From Octadecabacter sp. B2R22 (GTDB lineage Bacteria > Pseudomonadota > Alphaproteobacteria > Rhodobacterales > Rhodobacteraceae): a stretch of 64,000 bases of DNA. The notes under the pieces were generated by a model. The model searched no databases. It saw only the letters and a program-made list of their open reading frames with translations, and was not told the DNA's origin. The DNA lies in the NCBI RefSeq assembly GCF_018861045.1, contig NZ_JAHKQJ010000007.1, positions 310,001-374,000 on the forward strand. The letters run 5' to 3'. Shown piece by piece: positions 46,694 through 58,966 of the stretch. The position numbers were made by a program, and so were the translations under genes. Within the stretch, counting starts at the first letter, position 1, and each line of letters starts with the position of its first letter.

Positions 46694-48643
46694 TTAGTCG
46701 GATTTGTTCATCCGGTTCTCGATCAGGTCATCCACAACGGACGGATCCGCCAATGTGGATGTATCCCCCAAGGCACCAAAGTCATCTTCGGCAATCTTGC
46801 GCAGGATACGGCGCATGATCTTGCCTGAACGTGTCTTCGGCAAACCAGGGGCCCATTGGATCAGGTCTGGTTTTGCGATTGGGCCAATCTCGGAACGGAC
46901 CCAAACTTCGAGCTCCTTGCGCAGTTCTGGAGTTGGTTCTTCGCCGTTCATCAAAGTGACGTAAGCGTAGATGCCTTGGCCTTTGATGTCGTGCGGATAG
47001 CCAACAACGGCGGCTTCCGCGACTTTGACGTGCGCCACAAGAGCAGATTCGACTTCTGCGGTGCCCATGCGGTGACCGGATACATTGATCACGTCATCCA
47101 CGCGGCCCGTGACCCAGTAATCGCCATCTTCGTCACGTTTGCAGCCGTCCCCAGAGAAGTAGTAGCCAGCGTAATCGCCGAAGTACGTTTTCTCAAAGCG
47201 TTCATGATCGCCGTAAACGGTCCGCATTTGGCCCGGCCAGCTGTCTTTGATGCAAAGAACGCCTTCGACGCCGTTGCCTTCGATTTCGACACCTGATTGT
47301 GGGTCCAGAACCACGGGCTGAACACCAAAGAACGGTTGCTGTGCCGCACCCGGTTTCAGTGTTGTCGCACCGGGAAGGGGGGTCAGCATGTGACCGCCTG
47401 TTTCCGTCTGCCAGAAGGTATCAACAATCGGGCAGTTTCCTTTGCCGACGACGTCGTTGTACCAGTTCCAGGCTTCTGGGTTGATCGGTTCACCCACAGA
47501 GCCAAGAATGCGCAGATCGGACAGGTCATGCTTTTCAACCCAGTCGTTACCAGCGCCCATCAGGGCACGAATAGCCGTCGGAGCTGTGTAGAACTGGTTG
47601 ACCTTATGCTTGGCGCAGACTTCCCAGAAACGACCCGCGTCAGGGTAAGTTGGAACGCCTTCGAACATGATCGTTGTCGCGCCGTTCGCCAGTGGACCGT
47701 ACACAATGTAGCTGTGCCCTGTGACCCAACCAACATCAGCGGTACACCAGAAGATGTCACCGTCGTGGTAATCAAACGTGTATTGCTGCGTCATCGCGGC
47801 ATAAACAAGGTAGCCACCCGTCGAGTGTACAACACCCTTTGGCTGACCTGTGGAACCAGACGTATATAGAATGAACAGCGGGTCTTCTGCGTTCATCTCT
47901 TCTGGTTTTTGGTAGTCGTCAGCCTCAAGCAACATGTCATTGTAGCTATAGTCACGATCGGTCCATGTGGTCTGCTCACCGGTGCGTTTCACAACAAGGC
48001 ATTTGACGCTCTCTTTGCAGTGCAGCAGTGCCGTATCACAGTTGGATTTCAATGGGGTAGAGCGGCCACCACGTGGCGCGTGGTCTGCCGTAATGACAAC
48101 TTTGGCGTCGGACCCGTTGATCCGTGCGCCAAGTGCGTCTGCCGAGAAGCCAGCGAAAACGATTGAGTGGATCGCACCGATCCGCGCACAGGCCAACATG
48201 GCGTAGGCGGCTTCTGGGATCATCGGGAGATAAAGGACAACACGGTCGCCTTTGCCCACACCCAATTCCTGAAGGATATTTGCCATCTTACAGACGTGAA
48301 CCTGAAGTTCAGCGTAAGTGATGTGCATGGATTCTGTTGTGTTTGGATCATCCGGTTCCCAGATGATTGCAGTCTGATCACCACGTGTCGCAACGTGGCG
48401 GTCCACGCAGTTTGCACTGACGTTCAGTGTGCCGTCCTCGAACCATTTGATATCGACATTGCCTGGCTCAAAGGAGGTGTTCTTTACCTTGGTGTAGGGC
48501 TTGATCCAGTCAATGCGCTTGCCGTGCTCTCCCCAGAACCCTTCTGGATCGGACACGGATTTGGCATACATTTCAGCATAGCCTGCGGCATCAATATGGG
48601 CGCGTTTGGCAACTTCTGCGGTGGGGGGGTAGGTCTTTGACAT
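46694..48643 (-). CDS. acs: acetyl-CoA synthetase
   Basis: 649 residues, normal length. It converts acetate, ATP and CoA to acetyl-CoA through acetyl-AMP. AMP-binding motif [11 protein letters not shown], motif YFSGDG and the C-terminal catalytic lysine K608 in PKTRSGKI, which in relatives is switched off by acetylation, are all intact. AAGGA ribosome site. The liv importer lies directly upstream on the same strand; a hairpin separates them. Both the ScfR regulator and the CrbS-like kinase lie within 8-12 kb. Confidence 0.97.
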
Positions 48644-48709
48644 GGGCGTTCCTTAGGTCGAAAGAGCAACAGGGAACCCGTATGGAATGCATATGGAAAC
48701 CATATGGGT

Positions 48710-48736
48710 ATTGCGGGGCCAAGTTGACCCCGCAAT
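48710..48736 (-). terminator. hairpin between livF and acs
   Basis: ATTGCGGGG at 48710-48718 pairs perfectly with CCCCGCAAT at 48728-48736. It sits five bases after the livF stop. No T run on the minus strand, so acs may still be reached by read-through. Confidence 0.55.
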
Positions 48737-48740
48737 GAGA

Positions 48741-49514
48741 TCAGATCGCGAGGTACTTGGAGCGAAGCGCTTCGTCTTCGAGCACTTCTTTTGCAGAGCC
48801 GTCATAGACGACCTTACCAATGTCGAGGATCACAGCGCGGTCTGCAAGCTTCAACGCGGCAACGGCGTTCTGCTCAACGATCACTGTTGTGATACCTTGG
48901 TCGCGGATCAGTTCCAGTGTTTTGGCAATTTCCTGAACGATAACAGGGGCAAGGCCCTCATATGGTTCATCGAGAAGTAGCACTTTAATATCCCGGCAAA
49001 GGGCCCGTGCGATGGCAAGCATCTGCTGTTCACCACCAGAAAGCGTAACGCCTTCTTGAGTGCGGCGTTCCCTAAGGCGCGGGAACAGGTCGTAAACGCG
49101 GTCTAAAGACCAGCCCTTAGGTGGTGCGATCTGCGCCAGCTTGAGGTTCTCTTCCACGGTCAGACCGGGAATGATGTTACGATCTTCCGGCACCAGCTGG
49201 ATCCCAGCTTGCGACGCTTCGTGAGAACGCATGTTGTGAAGCGGCTTATGGTCCAGCCAGATTTCACCGTGCTTCAGTTCGGGGTCATCCATTCGCGCGA
49301 TCGTGCGCAAAGTCGATGTTTTACCCGCACCGTTGCGGCCCAGTAGGGCGAGGATTTCGCCTTCGTGGATGTCAAAGCTAACGCCCTGAACGATGTAGCT
49401 TTCGCCGTAGTAAGCCTCGATGTCCCAAACACTGAGGTATTTGGGGGCGGTTGCCGCCATATTCCGCTTCTTGTCGAATTTGCCTTCGATATCAAGATGT
49501 TCAACGTGTGTCAT
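48741..49514 (-). CDS. livF: branched-chain/amide-type ABC transporter ATPase, LivF
   Basis: 257 residues. An N-terminal extension of about 28 residues precedes the ABC domain, with Walker A GRNGAGKTS, Q-loop LVPEDRNI, signature TLSGGEQQM and Walker B LLLDEPYEGLAP. This is one of the two ATPases of a high-affinity amino-acid, amide or carboxylate uptake system. AAGGA ribosome site. Last gene of the importer operon before acs. Confidence 0.94.
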   Translation of the reverse strand: MTHVEHLDIEGKFDKKRNMAATAPKYLSVWDIEAYYGESYIVQGVSFDIHEGEILALLGRNGAGKTSTLRTIARMDDPELKHGEIWLDHKPLHNMRSHEASQAGIQLVPEDRNIIPGLTVEENLKLAQIAPPKGWSLDRVYDLFPRLRERRTQEGVTLSGGEQQMLAIARALCRDIKVLLLDEPYEGLAPVIVQEIAKTLELIRDQGITTVIVEQNAVAALKLADRAVILDIGKVVYDGSAKEVLEDEALRSKYLAI

Positions 49515-49533
49515 AGTTATTCCTTGCTTGCGT

Positions 49534-49551
49534 GGATGGCCGAAGCCATCC
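49534..49551 (-). repeat. intercistronic UUCG hairpin between livG and livF
   Basis: GGATGGC and GCCATCC (49534-49540 and 49545-49551) around CGAA on the plus strand; on the transcribed minus strand the loop reads TTCG, a very stable tetraloop. It lies 17-20 bases before the livF start. Confidence 0.5.
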
Positions 49552-49559
49552 GACGGCTC

Positions 49560-50318
49560 TTAGACCTGAGCTTCGCCGAGGTAGGCTTCGCGGACTTTTG
49601 GGTGACCTTTGATGTTGTCTGGCGTGTCTTCGACCAGCGGCGTACCTTGGGCCAGAACAGTGATCCGTTCCGCCAAAGAGAACACAACGTTCATGTCGTG
49701 CTCGATGATCGCCATTGTCAGACCACGTTCCTTGCGGATCGTTTTCAACAACTCAATCGTGTTTTCCGTGTCGGCGCGGGCCATGCCGGCTGTTGGCTCA
49801 TCGAGCAACAGAAGACGTGGTTCCTGCACAAGGCACATCGCCATCTCAAGGCGACGTTTATCCCCTCGTGACATGGAGGACGCGATCATCTCGCGCTTGT
49901 CGAGCATTTTCACCTCTTCCAACATGGCTTCGGCTTTCTCGATCATGTCGGCTTCGTGACGTACGCTTTCGATGGCGTGCATACGGAATGCACCATCACG
50001 TTTCGCGAAGCAGGGGATCAACATGTTTTCCATAACGCTGAGGTCTGCAAAGATCTCGGGTGTTTGGAACACGCGGCTGATGCCCATCTGGTTGATTTCG
50101 TGTGGCTGACGACCCAGGACCGACTGCCCGTCAAACACGACAGAACCGGAGTCAGGGATCAATTTGCCAACCAACACGTTGAGGAGGGTGGATTTACCGG
50201 CCCCGTTCGGGCCGATAATTGCGTGGCAGGTGTTTTCTGCAACATCAAGGTTCACATCACCAAGGGCTTGCAGACCACCGAAGCGTTTGTTCACGCCTTT
50301 TACTGAAAGTAGTGCCAT
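49560..50318 (-). CDS. livG: branched-chain/amide-type ABC transporter ATPase, LivG
   Basis: 252 residues. Walker A GPNGAGKSTLL, Q-loop region MGISRVFQTPEIF, signature MSRGDKRRLE and Walker B LLLDEPTAGM. The signature is a variant (MSRGD rather than LSGG), which is a real departure from the consensus. The C-terminal KVREAYLGEAQV block is typical of LivG. AAGGAG ribosome site. Confidence 0.94.
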   Translation of the reverse strand: MALLSVKGVNKRFGGLQALGDVNLDVAENTCHAIIGPNGAGKSTLLNVLVGKLIPDSGSVVFDGQSVLGRQPHEINQMGISRVFQTPEIFADLSVMENMLIPCFAKRDGAFRMHAIESVRHEADMIEKAEAMLEEVKMLDKREMIASSMSRGDKRRLEMAMCLVQEPRLLLLDEPTAGMARADTENTIELLKTIRKERGLTMAIIEHDMNVVFSLAERITVLAQGTPLVEDTPDNIKGHPKVREAYLGEAQV

Positions 50319-50330
50319 TGTTTCGGCTCC

Positions 50331-51524
50331 TTATTCTGCGGGCTTGCTGGCGCCATCAGGCGTGTCAGCGTTTTTGGTGCGGCGGAACTTAGCGGCGATA
50401 CGTTGACCACCTTCTACGAGACCACCAGGAAGGAAGATCACGACCAGCATGAACATGATGCCAAGTGTCAGATGCCAGCCTTTACCGATGAACGGGTAGA
50501 CGAGGGCAACCATGAAATCTTCAAGGCCGTCCGGCATGAAGGCGAACCATTCGTGCAGGATGTCTTTGTTGATCTTGGAAACGATGTTTTCCATGTACTT
50601 AATGAAACCAGCGCCGAGGACGGGGCCAAACAAGGTGCCCGCACCGCCAAGGATCGTCATGATCACGACCTCACCGGAGGCTGTCCAGAACATGCGTTCC
50701 GGGCCAACTTGGGTGTCCATTGCGACCATCAGGCCACCGGCCAAGCCAGCAAACATGCCAGAGATGACAAACGCGGACAGTGTGTAGCGCTTTGGTGTCA
50801 GACCTGTGTAGTTCATCCGTTGCTGGTTGGATTTCACAGCGCGCAACATGATCCCGAACGGGGAGCGGAAGATGCGGATACTGAGGTAAAACGCGGCCAG
50901 CATAAAGGCAGCTGCAATGTAGTAGCCAAGGTTAAATGTGAACAACCAGTTGCCGATGTTCAACTCGAACGAGTTGCCCATTTCGGCCCCAAAGAGGTTC
51001 GCACGACCAATGCTGCCATCTGTTGGCCCGCCCAAGAGAGGGCTGTCGGTGTTCTTGATCTGCAGACCCGTTTCACCACCGGTGATAGGCGTCAGAACAG
51101 AGTAGGCGAGAGCATAAGACATTTGCGCAAAAGCCAATGTCAGGATCGAGAAGTAGATCCCTGAGCGGCGCAGCGACACGTAGCCAACCACAAAGCTAAA
51201 GGCACCTGCAACGATGATCGCAAAAACAATCCCAGGAAGGACGTTCAGAGTGATCAGCTTCAGCGACCAGATCGCTGCGTAGGAACCGACACCCAGAAAG
51301 GCGGCGTGTCCAAAGCTGAGGTAGCCCGTGAGGCCGAACAGCAGGTTAAAGCCAATCGCAAAGATACCGAAGATCACGAAACGCTGCATCAAGTCGGGGT
51401 AGCCCGCGTTGAACTGCGCCATAGCAGAACCTTCAGGGAAGGGGTTGAGGATAAAGGGTGCCAAAATGACAAGCCCGATGACGATCAGCATTAGTTTGCT
51501 GTCTTGTTTAGTTAATCCGAGCAT
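50331..51524 (-). CDS. livM: ABC transporter permease, LivM-type
   Basis: 397 residues with about ten membrane helices and the LivM EAA-like region [24 protein letters not shown] (about 270-295, visible in shorter parts). A C-terminal basic tail follows. It pairs with LivH to form the channel. GGAGG ribosome site overlaps the livH stop; the two genes are separated by only four bases. Confidence 0.93.
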
Positions 51525-51528
51525 GGGT

Positions 51529-52560
51529 TTAGTCCTCCATCACGCCTTTGCGACCCATCAGGCCACGAGGGCGGGTCAACAAGATAACGATTGCGACAAG
51601 GTAGATGATAATTTGGTTGATACCTGGAAGGATATCGACAATGACGGGCATCGAGGCAAAGCTTTCCAGAATGCCGAGCAGGAAGCCTGCAGCAACAGCA
51701 CCAGGCAGCGAGCCCATACCGCCCACAACAACCACAACAAAGCTGAGGACCAAGAAATCCATTCCCATATGGTAGTTCGGAGCAACGATTGGCGCGTACA
51801 TCACACCGGCAACACCCGCCACGGCGGCAGCAAGGCCGAACATGAACGTAAAGCGTTTGTCGATGTCGATACCCAAGAGGCCAACAGTCTCACGGTCAGC
51901 CATACCTGCACGCACAACCATCCCGAAGGTGGTGAACTGCAAGAAGGCGAACACAGCGGCGATGATAACAGCCGAGAAGAAGAAGTAGACCAAGCGCCAG
52001 TACGGATACATGATCGCGTTGGCTTCGTAGCCAAGGAACACACCGAAGTCCAAAGAGCCTTTGAACGCGTCTGGGGCAGGGGTCTGGATCGGGTTTGCAC
52101 CGAAGAAGTACTTGATGACTTCCTGCAAAACGATGGCAAGGCCGAAGGTCACAAGGATCTGGTCCGCGTGTGGGCGCTTGTAGAAGTGCTTGATCAAGCC
52201 GCGTTCCATAATGAACCCAACACCGATCATAACCGGAATAGAGAACAGGATCGCCAAAGGCACAGCCCAGTCCATAATCGCGGCGCCGGCGGCTTCACCA
52301 AACATGTCTTGGACGTAGAACACTTTGTTCATCGCGGGGTTACCCAGAAAGTCCAGGCGGGTAGGGTCGGCAACTTCGTGCGACGCTGACAAAATACGTG
52401 ACAGGATAACGGCACAGAACGAGCCCAGCATGAACAAAGCGCCGTGCGCAAAGTTCACAACACCGAGCGTGCCGAAAATGAGGGTCAGACCAAGAGCAAT
52501 CAGCGCATAAGCGGAGCCCTTGTCTAGACCGTTGAGAATTTGAACGATGATCTGGTCCAT
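51529..52560 (-). CDS. livH: ABC transporter permease, LivH-type
   Basis: 343 residues with about eight to nine helices. The N-terminal [17 protein letters not shown] and the block [20 protein letters not shown] are the LivH signature. It is longer than the E. coli version because of an insert between helices (about 60-150). Second gene after the binding protein. Confidence 0.93.
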
Positions 52561-52614
52561 GGACGGCGCCTCGGTTCAGGAGAAATAGGAAAGGGGGGTG
52601 CAACGATTTGGTGT

Positions 52615-52640
52615 GGATGCGCGGCCAAAGCCGCGCATCC
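52615..52640 (-). terminator. strong hairpin after the binding-protein gene
   Basis: GGATGCGCGGC at 52615-52625 and GCCGCGCATCC at 52630-52640 pair perfectly (11 base pairs, loop CAAA). It is 22 bases after the binding-protein stop and about 55 bases before livH. Such hairpins protect the upstream mRNA or partly terminate transcription, giving more binding protein than permease. Confidence 0.75.
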
Positions 52641-52662
52641 GAAGTATTTTAAGAACAGTCGC

Positions 52663-54012
52663 TTACGCGCCGTTGTTACACTCACCGAGAGTGGCTTCTG
52701 CGCCGCCCATCTGTGGGTGATCAGGAGAGTACATAACCTGATCAACCGGAGTAACTTCGACAACTTCGAGAAGGTCGAATTCGGACTCTGGGTTGTCTTT
52801 ACCCTTCACGACCAGCACGTCTTTGAAGCACTGGTGGTCATCGCCACGGTAAAGTGTCTTACCGTTGCCCAAACCGTCGAACTCAAAGTCTTCAAGCGCT
52901 TCAGCAACCGCACAAGGTGCGAAGGAGCCAGCACGTGTAACCGCATCCGCGTAAAGCAGTGTTTGCACGTATGTTGTGTGCGCTGCTGTGGATGGTGGGA
53001 AGCCGTACTTGGTACCGAAGGAGCGAACAAACGCCTGAGAACCTTCGTCCTGCAGGGACCAGTGCCAGTTGGTGGAACCAAGGATACCCTTGATGTTCTC
53101 GCCAGCACCACGTGCCATCAGACGGGAGAACAATGGAACAACGATTTCGAAGTCCTTGCCGTTTGCCTGAGCTTCACGAAGACCGAACTGAACAGCAGAG
53201 GTCAAAGAGTTGACCATGTTCCCGCCGTAGTGGTTCAGAACCAGAACGTCGGCACCGGAGTTCAGAACTGGTGCGATGTAGGAAGAGAAGTCAGTCTGTG
53301 TCAGTGGTGTTTTGACAGAGTTCACTGTTTCCCAGCCAACAGCTTCTGTGGAGGCACGGATGGCTTCCTCAGTTGTGTAGCCCCAGTTGTAGTCTGCAGT
53401 CAGGTGGTATGCTTTACGGTCAGAACCGTAACGCGCCGCCAGAACCGGAGCCAGAGCAGCACCTGTCATGTAGGAGTTGAAGAAGTGGCGGAAACCGTTC
53501 GCTTTACGGTCTTTACCAGTTGTGTCGTTGGAGTGTGTAAGGCCAGCCATAAAGATGACGCCAGCTTCTTGACACAGAGCCTGAACAGCAACAGCCACAC
53601 CGGAGGAAGACCCACCAGTAATCATGATTGCGCCGTCTTTTTCGATCATGGAACGAGCAGATGCACGGGCAGCGTCAGACTTTGTCTGAGTGTCACCTGT
53701 TACATACTTAACTTCGCGGCCCAGAATACCTGTACCGTCGAGCGCTTTGGAGCTGAATGTGCTCAGCATGCCGCCGTCGCCACCGCCGTTGATGTGCTCA
53801 ACAGCCAGTTCGTATGCGCGCAGTTCGTCCGCACCCTCGTCCGCGTAAGGACCAGTTTGTGGAACGTTGAAGCCGAGTGTGACTTCGCTTGCGCCAGGCG
53901 CGTTCGTGAAGCCGGACTCTTGAGCGCGCAGATATTGTGGAAGCGCCATGCCAGCACCAGCGACGGCACCAGTCTTAAGCACACCACGACGTGTGAAGTT
54001 TGATTTGGACAT
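52663..54012 (-). CDS. ABC transporter substrate-binding protein (Tat-dependent)
   Basis: 449 residues. Twin-arginine signal: NFTRRGVLKTGAVAGAG (about 5-21), then hydrophobic stretch to the QAES region. The body is the LivK/amide-binding fold, with NVPQTGPYADEG, IKDGAIMI-like DGAIMITGGSSSG, and a paired HNWY-like site not identifiable by eye. Ligand class is not recoverable from motifs. GGAGGA ribosome site. The promoter region 54013-54227 is shared with the divergent regulator and carries two TTTTGTAAA copies. Confidence 0.92.
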   Translation of the reverse strand: MSKSNFTRRGVLKTGAVAGAGMALPQYLRAQESGFTNAPGASEVTLGFNVPQTGPYADEGADELRAYELAVEHINGGGDGGMLSTFSSKALDGTGILGREVKYVTGDTQTKSDAARASARSMIEKDGAIMITGGSSSGVAVAVQALCQEAGVIFMAGLTHSNDTTGKDRKANGFRHFFNSYMTGAALAPVLAARYGSDRKAYHLTADYNWGYTTEEAIRASTEAVGWETVNSVKTPLTQTDFSSYIAPVLNSGADVLVLNHYGGNMVNSLTSAVQFGLREAQANGKDFEIVVPLFSRLMARGAGENIKGILGSTNWHWSLQDEGSQAFVRSFGTKYGFPPSTAAHTTYVQTLLYADAVTRAGSFAPCAVAEALEDFEFDGLGNGKTLYRGDDHQCFKDVLVVKGKDNPESEFDLLEVVEVTPVDQVMYSPDHPQMGGAEATLGECNNGA

Positions 54013-54135
54013 ATAGTATCCTCCCTAGAGAAATGCGGAGAGCCTCCCAGCTAAATCCGCACGTGCTTTTAGTAGCTTCATCATTAGAGGGGGGATTAGA
54101 AAGTTTCACAATAAGGCCTCCACAAGAAAGGTTAT

Positions 54136-54176
54136 TTTTGTAAAGACTTCGACGCTGCGTTGCGGTATTTTGTAAA
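54136..54176. promoter_or_regulatory. two direct copies of TTTTGTAAA in the divergent promoter region
   Basis: TTTTGTAAA occurs at 54136-54144 and again at 54168-54176, 32 bases apart, close to three helical turns. RamB-type regulators recognise similar TTTGCAAA-like elements in actinobacteria (general knowledge), so this could be an operator for the adjacent ScfR-like protein. Confidence 0.5.
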
Positions 54177-54227
54177 AAAGTTGTCAACGCGCTGCGGCAT
54201 AGCGATGAAAACACTAAGGGAATCTTA

Positions 54228-55508
54228 ATGGCGGAACGGATACTGACAGGGACGCGGGTTCGAAATCGCAGACTGGATCTGGGGCTCAGACAATCTGCGG
54301 TCGCAGAACAGGTCGGGATTTCTGGGTCCTACCTGAACTTGATCGAACACAACCGTCGCAGAATCGGCGGTAAGCTTCTGGGCGCTCTCGCGCGGGTTCT
54401 CGAAGTCGACCAAGCGCAGTTGGAAGACGAGACATCTGCATCCGTTATTGCACCTCTCAAGGTGGCGGCGGTCGAGTTCCCCAGCTTGGCGGTCGGGGCC
54501 GAAAGCGCAGAAGATCTTGCCTCTCGTTTTCCCGGGTGGGCAGGGGTCATCAGTGCCCAGCAAGCCCATATCGAAAGGCTCACGGCGAAAGTGGATGCTT
54601 TGGCAAACCGTCTGGCCCACGACACCAAGATTGCGACGTCCCTGCATGAAGTCATTTCGACGGCGACGGCTATTCGCTCAACTGCGTCGATCCTGGTCGA
54701 AACGCCTGATCTGGATGCGGAATGGCAGGGCAGGTTCCACACCAACATTGATACCGACAGTGCCCGACTGGCTGAAAGTTCGCAGGCGTTGCTAGGATTG
54801 CTGGACATCGAAGCCGGAGGAGATGCATCTGACGTTTCGACCGTTGTCGAGCAAGCCGAAAGCCTTTTTGGCGCGCGGGGGTTTCATTTGCCTGAGTGTG
54901 AGAACGGGAATGAGCCAGAGTGGCCGGAGGCCGTTGATAGTGTCGTGGGTGAAATTGCGGCGGGCTGGGCACGCGATTACATCGCAGACGCGGCACGCTT
55001 GCCGCTCACGTTGTTTGGCCCGGCAGCAGAACAAATGGCATTTGACCCAGCGCGCTTGGCGGCGCGGTTTGATGTCCCTGTCGAAATGGTCCTGCGTCGG
55101 TTAGCGCAACTTCCGGCGTCAGCATCGGGTCCTCCGATGGGGTTGGTCAGGTGTGACAGCGCGGGGGTCATCACGTTCCAAAAGCCCATTCTGGATTTCC
55201 GGTTGCCGCGGGCGGGGGCGGCATGCCCGCTGTGGCCGCTTTTCCAAGCCCTATCCCAACCGGGACACGCGCTGCGAAGCGTTGTGCGTATGGGCGGTGC
55301 TGCACGAACCTCGTTTGAGTGTTTCGCGATTGCAACCCGTGTCGGGCCGGTCTCTTTCGGGGCGCCACCGCGTATTGAGGCGACGATGCTGGTGCGCCCG
55401 GCCCAAAGTGATGAGGTGCCAAACCCCGTCGGTCCTGGTTGTAGAATTTGCACCATTGAGGGGTGTTCAAGCCGCAGGCAACCTAGCGTGCTGCAACCTA
55501 AGGGATAA
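54228..55508 (+). CDS. RamB/ScfR-type short-chain fatty acyl transcriptional regulator
   Basis: 426 residues. N-terminal Xre helix-turn-helix (about 8-65) with VAEQVGISGSYLNLIEHNRR. The C-terminal half is the fatty-acyl regulator domain: CPLWPLFQALSQPGHALR, and the cysteine motif CRICTIEGC near the end. Between them (about 134-195) is a helical segment with HEVISTATAIRSTASIL at H140 that aligns with the dimerization helix of histidine kinases. Members of this family control acetate, propionate and glyoxylate genes. Divergent from the liv operon and acs, and upstream of the two-component genes. Confidence 0.9.
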   Translation: MAERILTGTRVRNRRLDLGLRQSAVAEQVGISGSYLNLIEHNRRRIGGKLLGALARVLEVDQAQLEDETSASVIAPLKVAAVEFPSLAVGAESAEDLASRFPGWAGVISAQQAHIERLTAKVDALANRLAHDTKIATSLHEVISTATAIRSTASILVETPDLDAEWQGRFHTNIDTDSARLAESSQALLGLLDIEAGGDASDVSTVVEQAESLFGARGFHLPECENGNEPEWPEAVDSVVGEIAAGWARDYIADAARLPLTLFGPAAEQMAFDPARLAARFDVPVEMVLRRLAQLPASASGPPMGLVRCDSAGVITFQKPILDFRLPRAGAACPLWPLFQALSQPGHALRSVVRMGGAARTSFECFAIATRVGPVSFGAPPRIEATMLVRPAQSDEVPNPVGPGCRICTIEGCSSRRQPSVLQPKG

Positions 55509-55601: not shown

Positions 55602-55970
55602 ATGGGCCAACGTGTCCTGCTAATTGAAGACGAGCCGAACATAATCGAGGCCGTCAGCTATATTCTAAGCCGTGACGGTTGGACCGTTCACACCCATTCG
55701 GATGGGGAAACGGCGATCGAGAAGGTTATGCAGGGTGTCCCCGACTTGATCATCTTGGACGTCATGCTGCCGGGGCGGTCTGGATATGACATCTTGCGTG
55801 ATCTTCGTGCATCTGCGGAAACCAAAGAGACTCCGGTCATGATGCTAACGGCACGGGGGCAGGCCAAGGATCGCGAACTTGCGATTGGTCTTGGGGCGAC
55901 ACAATTCATGACCAAACCGTTTTCAAATGCGGAAGTTCTAGAAAGCGTGCGCGCTTTGGCGGGTTCCTAG
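55602..55970 (+). CDS. single-domain response regulator (CheY-like receiver)
   Basis: 122 residues: a receiver only, with no DNA-binding domain. Acidic pocket at E9/D10, phosphorylation site D53 in LIILDVMLPG, T83 in LTAR and K105 in MTKPF. Start at 55602 follows GGGGAGG; an upstream ATG at 55572 is weaker. It precedes the kinase gene by two genes and is its likely phosphate acceptor. CrbR partners in other bacteria carry an HTH output; this one does not, so the output must be protein contact. Confidence 0.92.
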   Translation: MGQRVLLIEDEPNIIEAVSYILSRDGWTVHTHSDGETAIEKVMQGVPDLIILDVMLPGRSGYDILRDLRASAETKETPVMMLTARGQAKDRELAIGLGATQFMTKPFSNAEVLESVRALAGS

Positions 55971-55976
55971 CCCATC

Positions 55977-56303
55977 ATGACACAAGCTCTGCCCAATGAC
56001 AGCCCGCCCAAGTCTCCGATCAAATCGGGACCGCGGACCAAGTTTCTAGAGCGCAGCAACTACCGCCAACGCCGTTTTCGTGATGCAGCCCGCTGGTTGC
56101 CGCTGTTCGGCGCGGTCTTTATGGTTTTTCCATTGATGTGGCCGCGCGAAACGCCGGATCAAAGCCTGACCAGCACCAGTATGATCTACCTTTTTGCGCT
56201 TTGGGTTATTCTGGCTGTCTTGGCGTTCGTGCTGAACCGTGTTTTGCGGGTTTCAGATACCATCGACGGGAGTGAAAGTACGGATGAGCGGGGCAGCGAA
56301 TGA
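55977..56303 (+). CDS. small two-helix membrane protein preceding the SLC5-kinase
   Basis: 108 residues. A basic N-terminal region with NYRQRRFRDAARW is followed by two hydrophobic segments (about 41-57 and 68-88). Six bases after the receiver gene; overlaps the next gene by four bases, indicating tight coupling. The size, two helices and position before an SLC5 protein resemble YjcH/DUF485 or DUF4212 subunits that precede acetate/solute symporters, but there is no clear motif match. Inference only. Confidence 0.75.
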   Translation: MTQALPNDSPPKSPIKSGPRTKFLERSNYRQRRFRDAARWLPLFGAVFMVFPLMWPRETPDQSLTSTSMIYLFALWVILAVLAFVLNRVLRVSDTIDGSESTDERGSE

Positions 56304-58966
56304 TTTCGTTTAACCTGCTGGTCCTTGTGTCGCTGCTCTATGTCGCGTTCCTGTTCATTGTGGCCTTCGTGGCGGAACGGCGGGCGGCGTTGGGTAAAAC
56401 CGGCTGGCTGCGATCATCTGCGATTTATACGCTTTCGCTCAGCATCTATTGCACGGCTTGGACGTTTTATGGCGCAGTGGGCTACGCCGCCAGATCGGGG
56501 CTGGAGTTTCTGACAATCTATCTAGGTCCGACGCTGGTCATGATCGGCTGGTGGTGGTTGGTCCGTAAACTTGTGCGGATCGGGCGGGCGCAACGCCTGA
56601 CCTCTATTGCGGACTTGATTTCATCGCGATTTGGCAAGTCTACAGGGCTTGGGATGATGGTAACGGTGTTGGCGATTGTTGGCATTACACCTTATATTGC
56701 ACTGCAACTTCAATCCGTTACACAATCTATTGCGGTGTTCGCCGCGAGCAGTGGAGAAATCTGGGCCCAGCGTGATTTAGATGGTGCCGCGATGTGGGTC
56801 GCGGTTGGTCTGGCTGTTTTCACAGTGGTCTTCGGTACGCGAAATCTGGATGCCCATGAACGTCATGACGGGATCGTTTTGGCCATCGCCGTGGAGGCCG
56901 TGGTTAAACTTTTTGCGCTCATCGCGGTCGGTGTCTTTGTGGTTTGGGGCGTTGCTGGCGGTGTTGGCGCGACGATGGATTTGATCGATGCCTCGGCGCA
57001 GTCGCAATGGGCTCCAAGCCCAAGCAGATGGATCGGCCTTATCTTTGTGTCTGGTGCTGCATTCCTATGTTTACCGCGGATGTTTCAAGTGCTTGTCGTT
57101 GAAAACTCGGACGAGCGGGCCTTGGGAACCGCCAGTTGGGCGTTTCCGACCTATCTGATGTTGATGAGCCTTTTTGTGGTACCGATTGCGGTTGTCGGCT
57201 TGGATCTGATGCCGGAAGGGTCAAACCCCGACCTTTTCGTAGTGACCTTGCCCCTCAGCGAGGGGCGCGAAGGACTGGCGATCCTTGCGTTCTTGGGGGG
57301 CTTCTCTTCGGCGACGTCAATGGTGATCGTTGCAACGCTGGCCTTGGCCACGATGGTAAGTAACCACATCGTGGCCCCCAGCTGGCTGACGTCCCGCACA
57401 ACCGGTGCCGCCGTAAGCGGTGACGTCCGTGGAGTCGTGGTCGCATCGCGGCGCATTGCGATTGGGGTCATTATGGCCTTGGGCTACATCTACTTTCGCC
57501 TGTCCGGTGGCGGGACGGCCCTTGCGGCGATCGGCTTGGTGTCCTTCACAGGGATTATGCAAGTTCTTCCGGCGATGATTGGCGGCGTCTTTTGGCGCGG
57601 GGCGAACCGTTGGGGCGCAGGGGCAGGGATTGCCATTGGGTTCGCGATTTGGGCGTGGACGCAGTTCTTGCCCAGTTTTGGTGTTGATGGGGTGATCTCT
57701 CAGGCGGTTTTTGACAACGGTCCTTTCGGGATCAATTGGCTGCGGCCACATGCGTTGTTCGGGATCGATGGTATCGATCCGTTGGTGCATGTGGCGTTCT
57801 GGTCGATGTTGCTAAATTCGGGCGCGGTGGTTCTGGTGTCGGTTTTGACGTTCCCGAACCCGCTTGAACGTCTGCAAGGGGCGCAGTTCGTCAATGTCTA
57901 CGACTATTCCAGCGATGCTCGCGTATGGTCGCAATCTGCAGCCCAAGCCGAAGACTTGCTTGTCATGACCCAGCGCATTTTGGGCAGCGCTGAGGCGCAG
58001 GCGGTTTTCCGAGCCGAGGCGCAGATGCAAGGCAAATCGGGGTTTCTGCCGGACGTGACGCCAGATTTCATTGGGAAACTGGAACGCGAAATGTCTGGTT
58101 CTATCGGGGCCGCGGCGGCCCATGCGATGATCGGCCAGCTGACGGAAGGTGCGACAGTGTCCGTCGATGATTTGATGGCGGTGGCCGATGAAACCGCGCA
58201 AATTGTTGAATATTCCAACCAGCTCGAAGCCAAAAGCGCCGAACAAGAACGAACGGCCCGCGCGCTGCAAGAAGCCAACGACAAGCTGACGGCGCTGTCG
58301 ATCCAGAAGGATGCCTTCCTGAGCCAAATCAGCCACGAATTGCGCACCCCGATGACGTCGATCCGATCTTTCTCGGACATTCTGCGCGACGGCGAAGTCG
58401 ATGGCGACGCGCGTCGGCGGTTTGCGGGGATCATCCACGATGAAACAAATCGCCTAACGCGCCTGCTTGATGATTTGTTGGACTTGGGCGTTTTGGAAAG
58501 CGGGCAGGTGCAGTTGAACATCGCTGAGGGCCGTTTGGCGGATGTCCTTGACCGCGCTGTGCTGGCGTCGGGCATTGACGAGACGCGGGTTTCGATCTCG
58601 CGGCGTGCAAACGCAGAGGCGGTAACGTTGTCGACCGATCTAGAACGCTTGTCGCAGGTGTTTATCAACCTGATCAGCAATGTCGCCAAGTATTGTGATG
58701 CGGATAAGCCTGAACTGCGGATCATCGTGCGCCCCATGGAGGGGCAATTGGTCGTTGATTTTTGTGACAATGGCACGGGCGTCCCGGAAGAAAGCCAGTC
58801 TGTGATTTTCGAAAAATTCTCGCGCCTTGAGGACGAAGGTAAAGCGGGCGGTGCGGGGCTTGGTCTTGCGATTTGCCGCCAGATCATGACTGCCATTGGT
58901 GGTGGGATCGCCTACCTTCCCGGGCAAGGTGGCGCGGCCTTTCGGGTCACGATCCCAACGGCGTGA
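56300..58966 (+). CDS. CrbS-like SLC5 transporter/sensor histidine kinase fusion
   Basis: 888 residues. About 1-520 is an SLC5 sodium-solute-symporter domain with some 13 helices; about 545-625 looks like the STAC linker, including LEREMSGSIGAAAAHAM. A coiled coil (YSNQLEAKSAEQERTARA) leads to HisKA with H679 in SQISHELRTPM and an ATPase domain with N box ISNVAKYC, DNGTGVP and GGAGLGLAICRQI. This matches CrbS, which senses or imports acetate and activates acs in gammaproteobacteria. It lacks a PAS domain and a C-terminal receiver, and is shorter than classical CrbS (about 1100). Confidence 0.93.
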   Translation: MISFNLLVLVSLLYVAFLFIVAFVAERRAALGKTGWLRSSAIYTLSLSIYCTAWTFYGAVGYAARSGLEFLTIYLGPTLVMIGWWWLVRKLVRIGRAQRLTSIADLISSRFGKSTGLGMMVTVLAIVGITPYIALQLQSVTQSIAVFAASSGEIWAQRDLDGAAMWVAVGLAVFTVVFGTRNLDAHERHDGIVLAIAVEAVVKLFALIAVGVFVVWGVAGGVGATMDLIDASAQSQWAPSPSRWIGLIFVSGAAFLCLPRMFQVLVVENSDERALGTASWAFPTYLMLMSLFVVPIAVVGLDLMPEGSNPDLFVVTLPLSEGREGLAILAFLGGFSSATSMVIVATLALATMVSNHIVAPSWLTSRTTGAAVSGDVRGVVVASRRIAIGVIMALGYIYFRLSGGGTALAAIGLVSFTGIMQVLPAMIGGVFWRGANRWGAGAGIAIGFAIWAWTQFLPSFGVDGVISQAVFDNGPFGINWLRPHALFGIDGIDPLVHVAFWSMLLNSGAVVLVSVLTFPNPLERLQGAQFVNVYDYSSDARVWSQSAAQAEDLLVMTQRILGSAEAQAVFRAEAQMQGKSGFLPDVTPDFIGKLEREMSGSIGAAAAHAMIGQLTEGATVSVDDLMAVADETAQIVEYSNQLEAKSAEQERTARALQEANDKLTALSIQKDAFLSQISHELRTPMTSIRSFSDILRDGEVDGDARRRFAGIIHDETNRLTRLLDDLLDLGVLESGQVQLNIAEGRLADVLDRAVLASGIDETRVSISRRANAEAVTLSTDLERLSQVFINLISNVAKYCDADKPELRIIVRPMEGQLVVDFCDNGTGVPEESQSVIFEKFSRLEDEGKAGGAGLGLAICRQIMTAIGGGIAYLPGQGGAAFRVTIPTA

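Follow-up and report, generated by a model that had tools for sequence, protein, structure and literature searches.

Stand-alone receivers are common in Alphaproteobacteria, often without a known output. PRD-type transcription regulators are phosphorylated on histidine by the PTS, a control that likewise works through His phosphorylation but with another domain and another phosphate donor than those considered below, and Spo0B is a His phosphotransferase comparable to ChpT. The CrbS/CrbR, RpuS/RpuR and PrlS/PrlR systems (SLC5/STAC kinases) use an SLC5-type kinase with HisKA and HATPase domains, as does the locus described here. PMC9100948 and PMC7918813 describe CrbS and RpuS (Sinorhizobium fredii) and PrlS (Brucella) as hybrids that come with a response regulator of the LuxR type. 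ChpT is a dimeric phosphotransferase with a kinase-like structure (PMC3433190), and an alphaproteobacterial relay has been described in which the phosphate travels from the Pak kinase over the single-domain receiver SdrG and a His of PhyT to PhyR (PMC5898713). Transcription factors of the ScfR/IsaR type (RamB, PrpR, PccR) have in common with the regulator studied here an HTH, a ScfRs domain, a Cys in the GAF domain and a CX2CX4C motif; the last two together form the [4Fe4S] site of MtPrpR (PMC6765138).

By analysing a window of 64,000 nucleotides from Octadecabacter sp. B2R22, we found an ScfR/IsaR-type (XRE) regulator gene and, downstream of it, the genes for a lone receiver, a small membrane protein and a sensor histidine kinase, whose coordinates are given in the table. 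In comparison with ScfR/IsaR factors, this regulator adds a DHp-like hairpin between the HTH and the M78/DIII-like domain, has a shorter middle part and is encoded together with a two-component system. In comparison with CrbS, RpuS and PrlS as described in the two accounts above, the kinase ends after its HATPase domain without a C-terminal receiver, the receiver is a separate protein, and DNA binding falls to a protein of the XRE/ScfR type rather than to a LuxR-type one like CrbR, RpuR and PrlR. The histidines of PhyT, ChpT and Spo0B hand their phosphate to another receiver, whereas the kinase-derived domain of this locus forms one chain with a DNA-binding regulator and would end the line. 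What we propose does resemble the PhyT/SdrG relay in that a single-domain receiver gives phosphate to a conserved His (PMC5898713). Among the best-ranked matches in a search of open-licence papers, we found no description of a DHp domain in an ScfR or XRE regulator, so that the combination of an ScfR regulator with a DHp homologue, and its position in signalling, are new with respect to the open-licence literature searched.

The domains of the regulator follow in the order HTH, DHp-like hairpin, shortened middle domain and ScfR C-terminal domain. Its scores with ScfRs PF09856 (54.2 bits, gathering score 24) and with HTH_3 (34.7, gathering score 23), the latter at the N-terminus as expected of this group, place it among the ScfR/IsaR factors. 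The alignment of its homologues (A1) has 71 rows drawn from 73 references, with L081 and L098 left out and the window in place of L001; four genomes occur in it twice (L030/L056, L031/L057, L032/L058 and L035/L059), and the rows therefore stand for 67 distinct genomes. Both ScfRs and HTH_3 match 71/71 rows at E<=1, and C333, C405, C408 and C413 are invariant in them. Conservation was also counted in 141 loci of the host family (one per genome) and in 20 regulators from the same class but outside the family, host family meaning Rhodobacteraceae and class Alphaproteobacteria in all counts. The CX2CX4C motif is present in 140/141 and 19/20 of these regulators, respectively. The correspondence of C333 and CX2CX4C to the [4Fe4S] site of MtPrpR makes an FeS cluster in the regulator probable; the full-length regulator profile also matches the MtPrpR chains (1.2e-30). 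No HATPase domain was detected in the regulator at E<=10 (Pfam), and it thus lacks the CA domain in cis of a histidine kinase. The window regulator shares 90% identity with one from Octadecabacter algicola (L248). The open frames of the 20 outside regulators are 481-599 aa long.

The stretch equivalent to residues 208-254 counts 47 residues in the window regulator, 114-134 in three regulators from outside the family and 129-130 in two paralogues. The M78/DIII-like part is therefore 67-87 residues shorter than in L328, L329, L340, L002 and L003. In PrpR, the CoA pocket is formed with the help of this part. Because of the shortening, binding of short-chain acyl-CoA by the window regulator is uncertain, and acyl-CoA sensing may have been lost from it.

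Table. Features of the locus, in positions of the window.
Feature	Position	Strand	Basis or remark
Divergent genes, among them ABC transporter genes with substrate-binding protein (presumed)	46694..54012	-	
Acetyl-CoA-synthetase-like protein (presumed)	46694..48643	-	
Divergent promoter region with paired TTTGTAAA boxes, putative ScfR-type operator	54013..54227		
TTTGTAAA box 1, putative operator	54137..54144	+	Between regulator and divergent ABC substrate-binding gene
TTTGTAAA box 2	54169..54176	+	Begins 32 bp after the beginning of box 1
ScfR/IsaR-type (XRE) transcriptional regulator, 426 aa	54228..55508	+	ORF; Pfam HTH_3 1.9e-8, ScfRs PF09856 1.9e-14
HTH DNA-binding domain, residues 8-66	54249..54425	+	Pfam HTH_31 8-66, HTH_3 12-61
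DHp-like region (profile A2), residues 105-204	54540..54839	+	Own-genome profile match to kinase DHp; hhalign
His140 codon CAT, aligned with phospho-accepting His679 of kinase	54645..54647	+	
Middle M78/DIII-like part, residues 208-254	54849..54989		
ScfR C-terminal domain, residues 299-421, C333 and C405-X2-C408-X4-C413	55122..55490	+	Pfam
Stand-alone receiver, 122 aa, without output domain	55602..55970	+	Pfam Response_reg 2.8e-27
Codon of phospho-accepting Asp53 of receiver	55758..55760		
Small membrane protein, 108 aa, hydrophobic stretches	55977..56303	+	ORF; membrane nature judged from sequence
SLC5/CrbS-like sensor histidine kinase, 888 aa	56300..58966	+	HisKA 4.6e-17 (670-735), HATPase_c 1.2e-20 (780-887)
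Kinase coil and DHp stretch matched by A2	58241..58465	+	29.7 bits, E 1.7e-6
His679 codon of kinase	58334..58336		

The hairpin sits between the HTH and ScfR domains, in a region running from a signal-helix-like coil over helix 1 and a turn to helix 2, the helices being predicted from the alignment with the kinase. Two ScfR paralogues of the same genome (L002 and L003) align on both sides of it, with 8 residues in place of the 63 of the regulator; the hairpin profile gave -0.6 bits on L003 and no reported match on L002. The hairpin is thus a clean insert relative to these two paralogues. That it might be common to all ScfRs was considered and ruled out, both paralogues being without it and the best stretch of the full-length regulator profile on PrpR covering profile positions 230-424. 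The part of MtPrpR that lies between HTH and DIII (DII, residues 81-152) was not visible and is possibly disordered (PMC6765138), and we infer that the hairpin occupies the place of this DII. A dimer helix could order such a region and DHp domains are established dimerizers, which would suit a hairpin that serves for homodimerization only, as a remnant of a kinase making no contact with two-component proteins. We hold this to be very improbable, since the receiver and the kinase closely adjoin and co-occur with the regulator and since a nearly invariant His would be needless in a pure dimer module, as detailed below.

The initial annotation had aligned HEVISTATAIRS, which begins at H140 of the regulator, with HELRTPMTSIRS, which begins at H679 of the kinase, had pointed to a similar second helix in both proteins and had suggested that the regulator took over a DHp domain. 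The ungapped register is real, as the listed alignments of the kinase DHps with the regulator profile put His on His and run on into the second helix. With a profile of the 71 regulator rows over residues 105-204 (A2), searching the genome of the window in six frames (E<=10) returned two places only, one being the regulator and the other the DHp of the kinase next to it; 16 HisKA domains of this genome score over the Pfam HisKA cut-off. In 40 other genomes (E<=1), A2 found the regulator in all 40 and, a few kb downstream, the neighbouring kinase in 31, at E from 1.6e-7 to 1.6e-3; apart from regulators and these kinases, its strongest match was G219:C31 with 9.6e-4. The DHps of 40 kinases (39 loci and the window) scored 18.5-34.1 bits against the regulator profile, and conversely the C-terminal part of the window kinase, used as a single query on a small set, matched 16/20 regulators from outside the family at E<=1e-3, best of all that of L347 (53.1 bits).

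Comparing regulator and kinase DHp profiles with hhalign gave a probability of 94.4 (E 9.1e-8, score 44.6) over 67 columns, again with His on His. Column-shuffled decoys (n=60) reached at most a probability of 11.3 and a score of 21.9, the reversed profile a probability of 0.25, and a profile built from 12 further HisKA domains in the window genome a probability of 27.0 with a score of 23.5. Chance or coiled-coil likeness, tried as an explanation of the match, was ruled out by the shuffled, reversed and whole-genome controls.

A check against HisKA profiles, which the initial annotation had suggested, gave a divided answer. The NCBIfam model of the CreC kinase matches residues 112-206 of the window regulator (E 1.2e-5) and 61/71 regulator rows at E<=0.1. 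Pfam HisKA (PF00512), by contrast, does not match the window regulator at E<=10, and the hairpin is absent from the Pfam HisKA matches of its genome at E<=1. This model matched 7/71 regulator rows at E<=1 (best E 0.013) and, when the region was searched alone at E<=10, 18/71 (best 0.0013), no more than the 21/71 (best 0.0014) of the unrelated FAD-SLDH family. With A2 against PDB sequences no kinase was found (best E 0.32). As Pfam HisKA barely sees the hairpin, the likeness is best seen against the adjacent SLC5/CrbS-like kinase. We therefore call the hairpin DHp-like and homologous to the adjacent kinase, not a member of Pfam HisKA. These alignments, and the conservation of its His described below, mark it as a hairpin homologous to HisKA-type DHp domains, with a His predicted to accept phosphate.

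A maximum-likelihood tree was built from 91 DHp sequences over 70 columns. It sampled the window and 24 random others of the 131 host-family pairs, the 20 outside regulators and, found by their H-box pattern, 9 outside kinases and 12 other HisKA domains of the window genome. All 45 regulators formed one clade (99/98), and regulators and 34 SLC5-type kinases together formed one clade against the 12 other HisKA domains (95/95), within the limits set by the small number of columns, by the long branches of the outgroup and by its coming from one genome. Together, the profile matches and this tree indicate that the regulator captured the DHp domain of a sensor kinase like the adjacent one, as the initial annotation had suspected. 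The L347 regulator branches early, with the other 44 forming a clade without it (99/95), and the row closest to its hairpin by identity is the DHp of its own neighbouring kinase (51%). This hairpin keeps HELL, and the genes of regulator and kinase are convergent in L347.

The kinase shows no further Pfam match at E<=10, including in its N-terminal part, which we take to be SLC5/CrbS-like. Aligned receivers from 39 loci and the window are single-domain proteins in 40/40 cases, with D53, T83 and K105 invariant, and all 40 end with the receiver fold, so that none has the LuxR-type HTH that a CrbR-type regulator carries. The lone receiver may be a split-off receiver. Standing between regulator and kinase, it is also the natural partner of a DHp domain, which the initial annotation had not singled out.

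Neighbourhoods were compared in 141 loci, namely the window and 140 fetched with wide flanks among the matches listed; weaker host-family matches lie outside this set, so that very divergent members are under-sampled. Regulator, receiver, membrane protein and kinase occur together in 131/141 of these loci, and a homologue of the small membrane protein in 134/141. As for the other loci, three are cut by contig ends (L188, L198 and L203), L183 has its receiver 5.8 kb away, and six have no receiver in the stretch (L046, L157, L168, L193, L195 and L210); in the genome of L046 (G126), the stretch stops just short of the receiver, which lies about 7.8 kb downstream in the same orientation. The four-gene block is kept in L061, L069 and L072, where the divergent ABC genes are missing. 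With a cut at E<=1e-40, the regulator is present in 204 of 248 sampled host-family genomes, and a receiver match (E<=1e-25) accompanies it in 203 of the 204, the exception being G195; 16 of the 44 remaining genomes have a receiver match, 12 of these with E above 1e-36.

In the class sample, 56/385 genomes match A2 at E<=1e-3, including 5 from the host family. A regulator-size match was found in 35 of the 380 sampled class genomes outside the family, and 12 of the other 16 A2-matching class genomes have a kinase-size frame (898 aa or more). A single-domain receiver is present in 17/20 of the outside loci fetched. In L346 the receiver lies beside the regulator with no kinase in the stretch, the kinase match of this genome being on another contig; in L342 and L347 the regulator lies beside the kinase with no receiver in the fetched stretch.

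The initial annotation had made its proposal depend on conservation of H140 among homologues, and this residue is indeed kept. The column holds His in 140/141 host-family loci and in 20/20 outside regulators (160/161 altogether); L058 is the only regulator of the 161 with Tyr in its place, and its receiver and kinase look intact. In A1, 69/71 rows have His, the two Tyr rows coming from one genome. All 161 regulators have Asp at H-8 and Ile at H+15, and none of the 161 has the H-box proline at H+5. Position H+4 is Ser/Thr in 134/141 host-family and 20/20 outside regulators, and position H+1 is acidic in 135/141 and 1/20, respectively. In HisKA kinases, as described in PMC3510030, the acid at H+1 is needed for kinase activity and Thr/Asn at H+4 serves phosphatase activity.

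These positions bear on how the hairpin might work. An acidic H+1 in nearly all host-family regulators, as kinase activity needs (PMC3510030), would fit direct contact with the kinase, either through mixed DHp bundles of regulator and kinase or through phosphorylation of His140 by the kinase ATPase domain, and so would the hairpin having its closest own-genome relative in the DHp of the adjacent kinase and the regulators of L342 and L347 adjoining a kinase in stretches without a receiver. However, the single acidic H+1 among the 20 outside regulators speaks against phosphorylation by the kinase ATPase domain as a general mode, L346 has kept the receiver, not the kinase, beside the regulator, and the kinase is membrane-bound while the regulator presumably has to reach DNA. 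Direct contact of this kind is therefore improbable in our judgement, and of the tie to the two-component system drawn by the initial annotation, the DHp-like nature of the hairpin has held up but dimerization with the kinase, or phosphorylation by the kinase itself, has become less likely.

A second possibility is that the hairpin is a non-catalytic docking platform, binding the phosphorylated or the unphosphorylated receiver with no phosphate reaching His140, which would then be kept because it is part of a docking or phosphatase surface. The homology of the hairpin and the neighbourhood data fit this equally well, Ser/Thr prevails at H+4, the phosphatase position of HisKA kinases (PMC3510030), and one His-to-Tyr variant (L058) is tolerated. 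Against it, His persists in 160/161 regulators while H+1 and H+5 drift, which suggests that the imidazole itself is used, and we consider a purely non-catalytic role rather unlikely.

Taking these observations together, the explanation that we regard as the best one, with somewhat better than even confidence in it as a whole, is that the regulator is the trans DNA-binding output of the kinase-receiver system, reached by the receiver at the DHp hairpin and His140. The DNA-binding output of the two-component system would thus have moved in trans, onto a separate regulator chain. The membrane kinase would autophosphorylate on His679 and then phosphorylate Asp53 of the receiver. The receiver would dock on the DHp hairpin of the regulator in the way that receivers bind to kinase DHps, the hairpin presumably forming a four-helix bundle in a homodimer. 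Either the phosphate would pass to His140 or the receiver would bind there as a switch. This would presumably change how the paired HTH domains are seated on two TTTGTAAA boxes, upstream of the regulator and of the divergent ABC-transporter genes, and a second input, from metabolism, would come through the FeS/acyl-CoA-type domain at the C-terminus.

We prefer a relay from kinase to receiver to His140 because the output-less receiver needs a partner, because receivers dock on DHp domains, which contact them directly (PMC3510030), and because the His outlasts the kinase-specific residues. A receiver without a DNA-binding part probably steers the regulator by docking on, or phosphorylating, the captured domain. 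Docking of the receiver on the hairpin is likely, and for phosphotransfer to His140 the chances seem evenly balanced. That a phosphorelay ends on the histidine of a DNA-binding factor, running from a transporter-like kinase over a lone receiver to the captured DHp of an FeS/acyl-CoA-type regulator, is a tentative proposal to which we give slightly less than an even chance. Several points count against the best explanation, namely the His-to-Tyr change in L058, the weak Pfam HisKA match, the absence of proline at H+5 and the receiver-less stretches of L342 and L347.

Covariation was analysed in the 131 complete loci. By mean-field DCA, the DHp region was slightly enriched in strong couplings, with 8.7 per 1000 compared with 4.7-6.2 elsewhere; the signal between regulator and receiver was noisy, and the kinase-receiver pair, taken as positive control, gave no clearer picture. 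By mutual information with APC, regulator H+7 and receiver position 21 ranked first of 51,606 pairs. When followed on the tree, this pair had 1.2 concordant and 0.2 discordant of 6 independent pairs, without significance. Since it mostly reflects one clade split (A/L 35, T/I 76) and failed the tree control, we made no use of it.

If the proposed relay is correct, the output of this two-component system is inverted, with the receiver as messenger and the kinase-derived half on the DNA-binding protein. For a stand-alone receiver, the regulator is a candidate output that is concrete, widespread and linked genetically, a factor wearing the docking domain of that receiver. In a single protein, it would bring the sensing by a membrane kinase of the SLC5 type together with an intracellular FeS/acyl-CoA-type sensor. 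This also suggests a route to the partners of such receivers, namely to search DNA-binding proteins for DHp hairpins overlooked by generic HisKA models.

Upstream of the regulator lie, on the other strand, what we take to be ABC transporter genes with a substrate-binding protein and a gene for an acetyl-CoA-synthetase-like protein; the ABC genes adjoin the regulator in 37/40 loci. The divergent genes are a possible regulon. The motif TTTG[CT]AAA occurs in 25 of 41 regulator upstream regions (3 of the 41 have no adjoining ABC genes), and its 34 copies compare with a mean of 0.8 in mononucleotide shuffles. ScfR sites commonly consist of two near-identical boxes with a spacer (PMC10370305), and the paired boxes of the window are a putative operator of this type.
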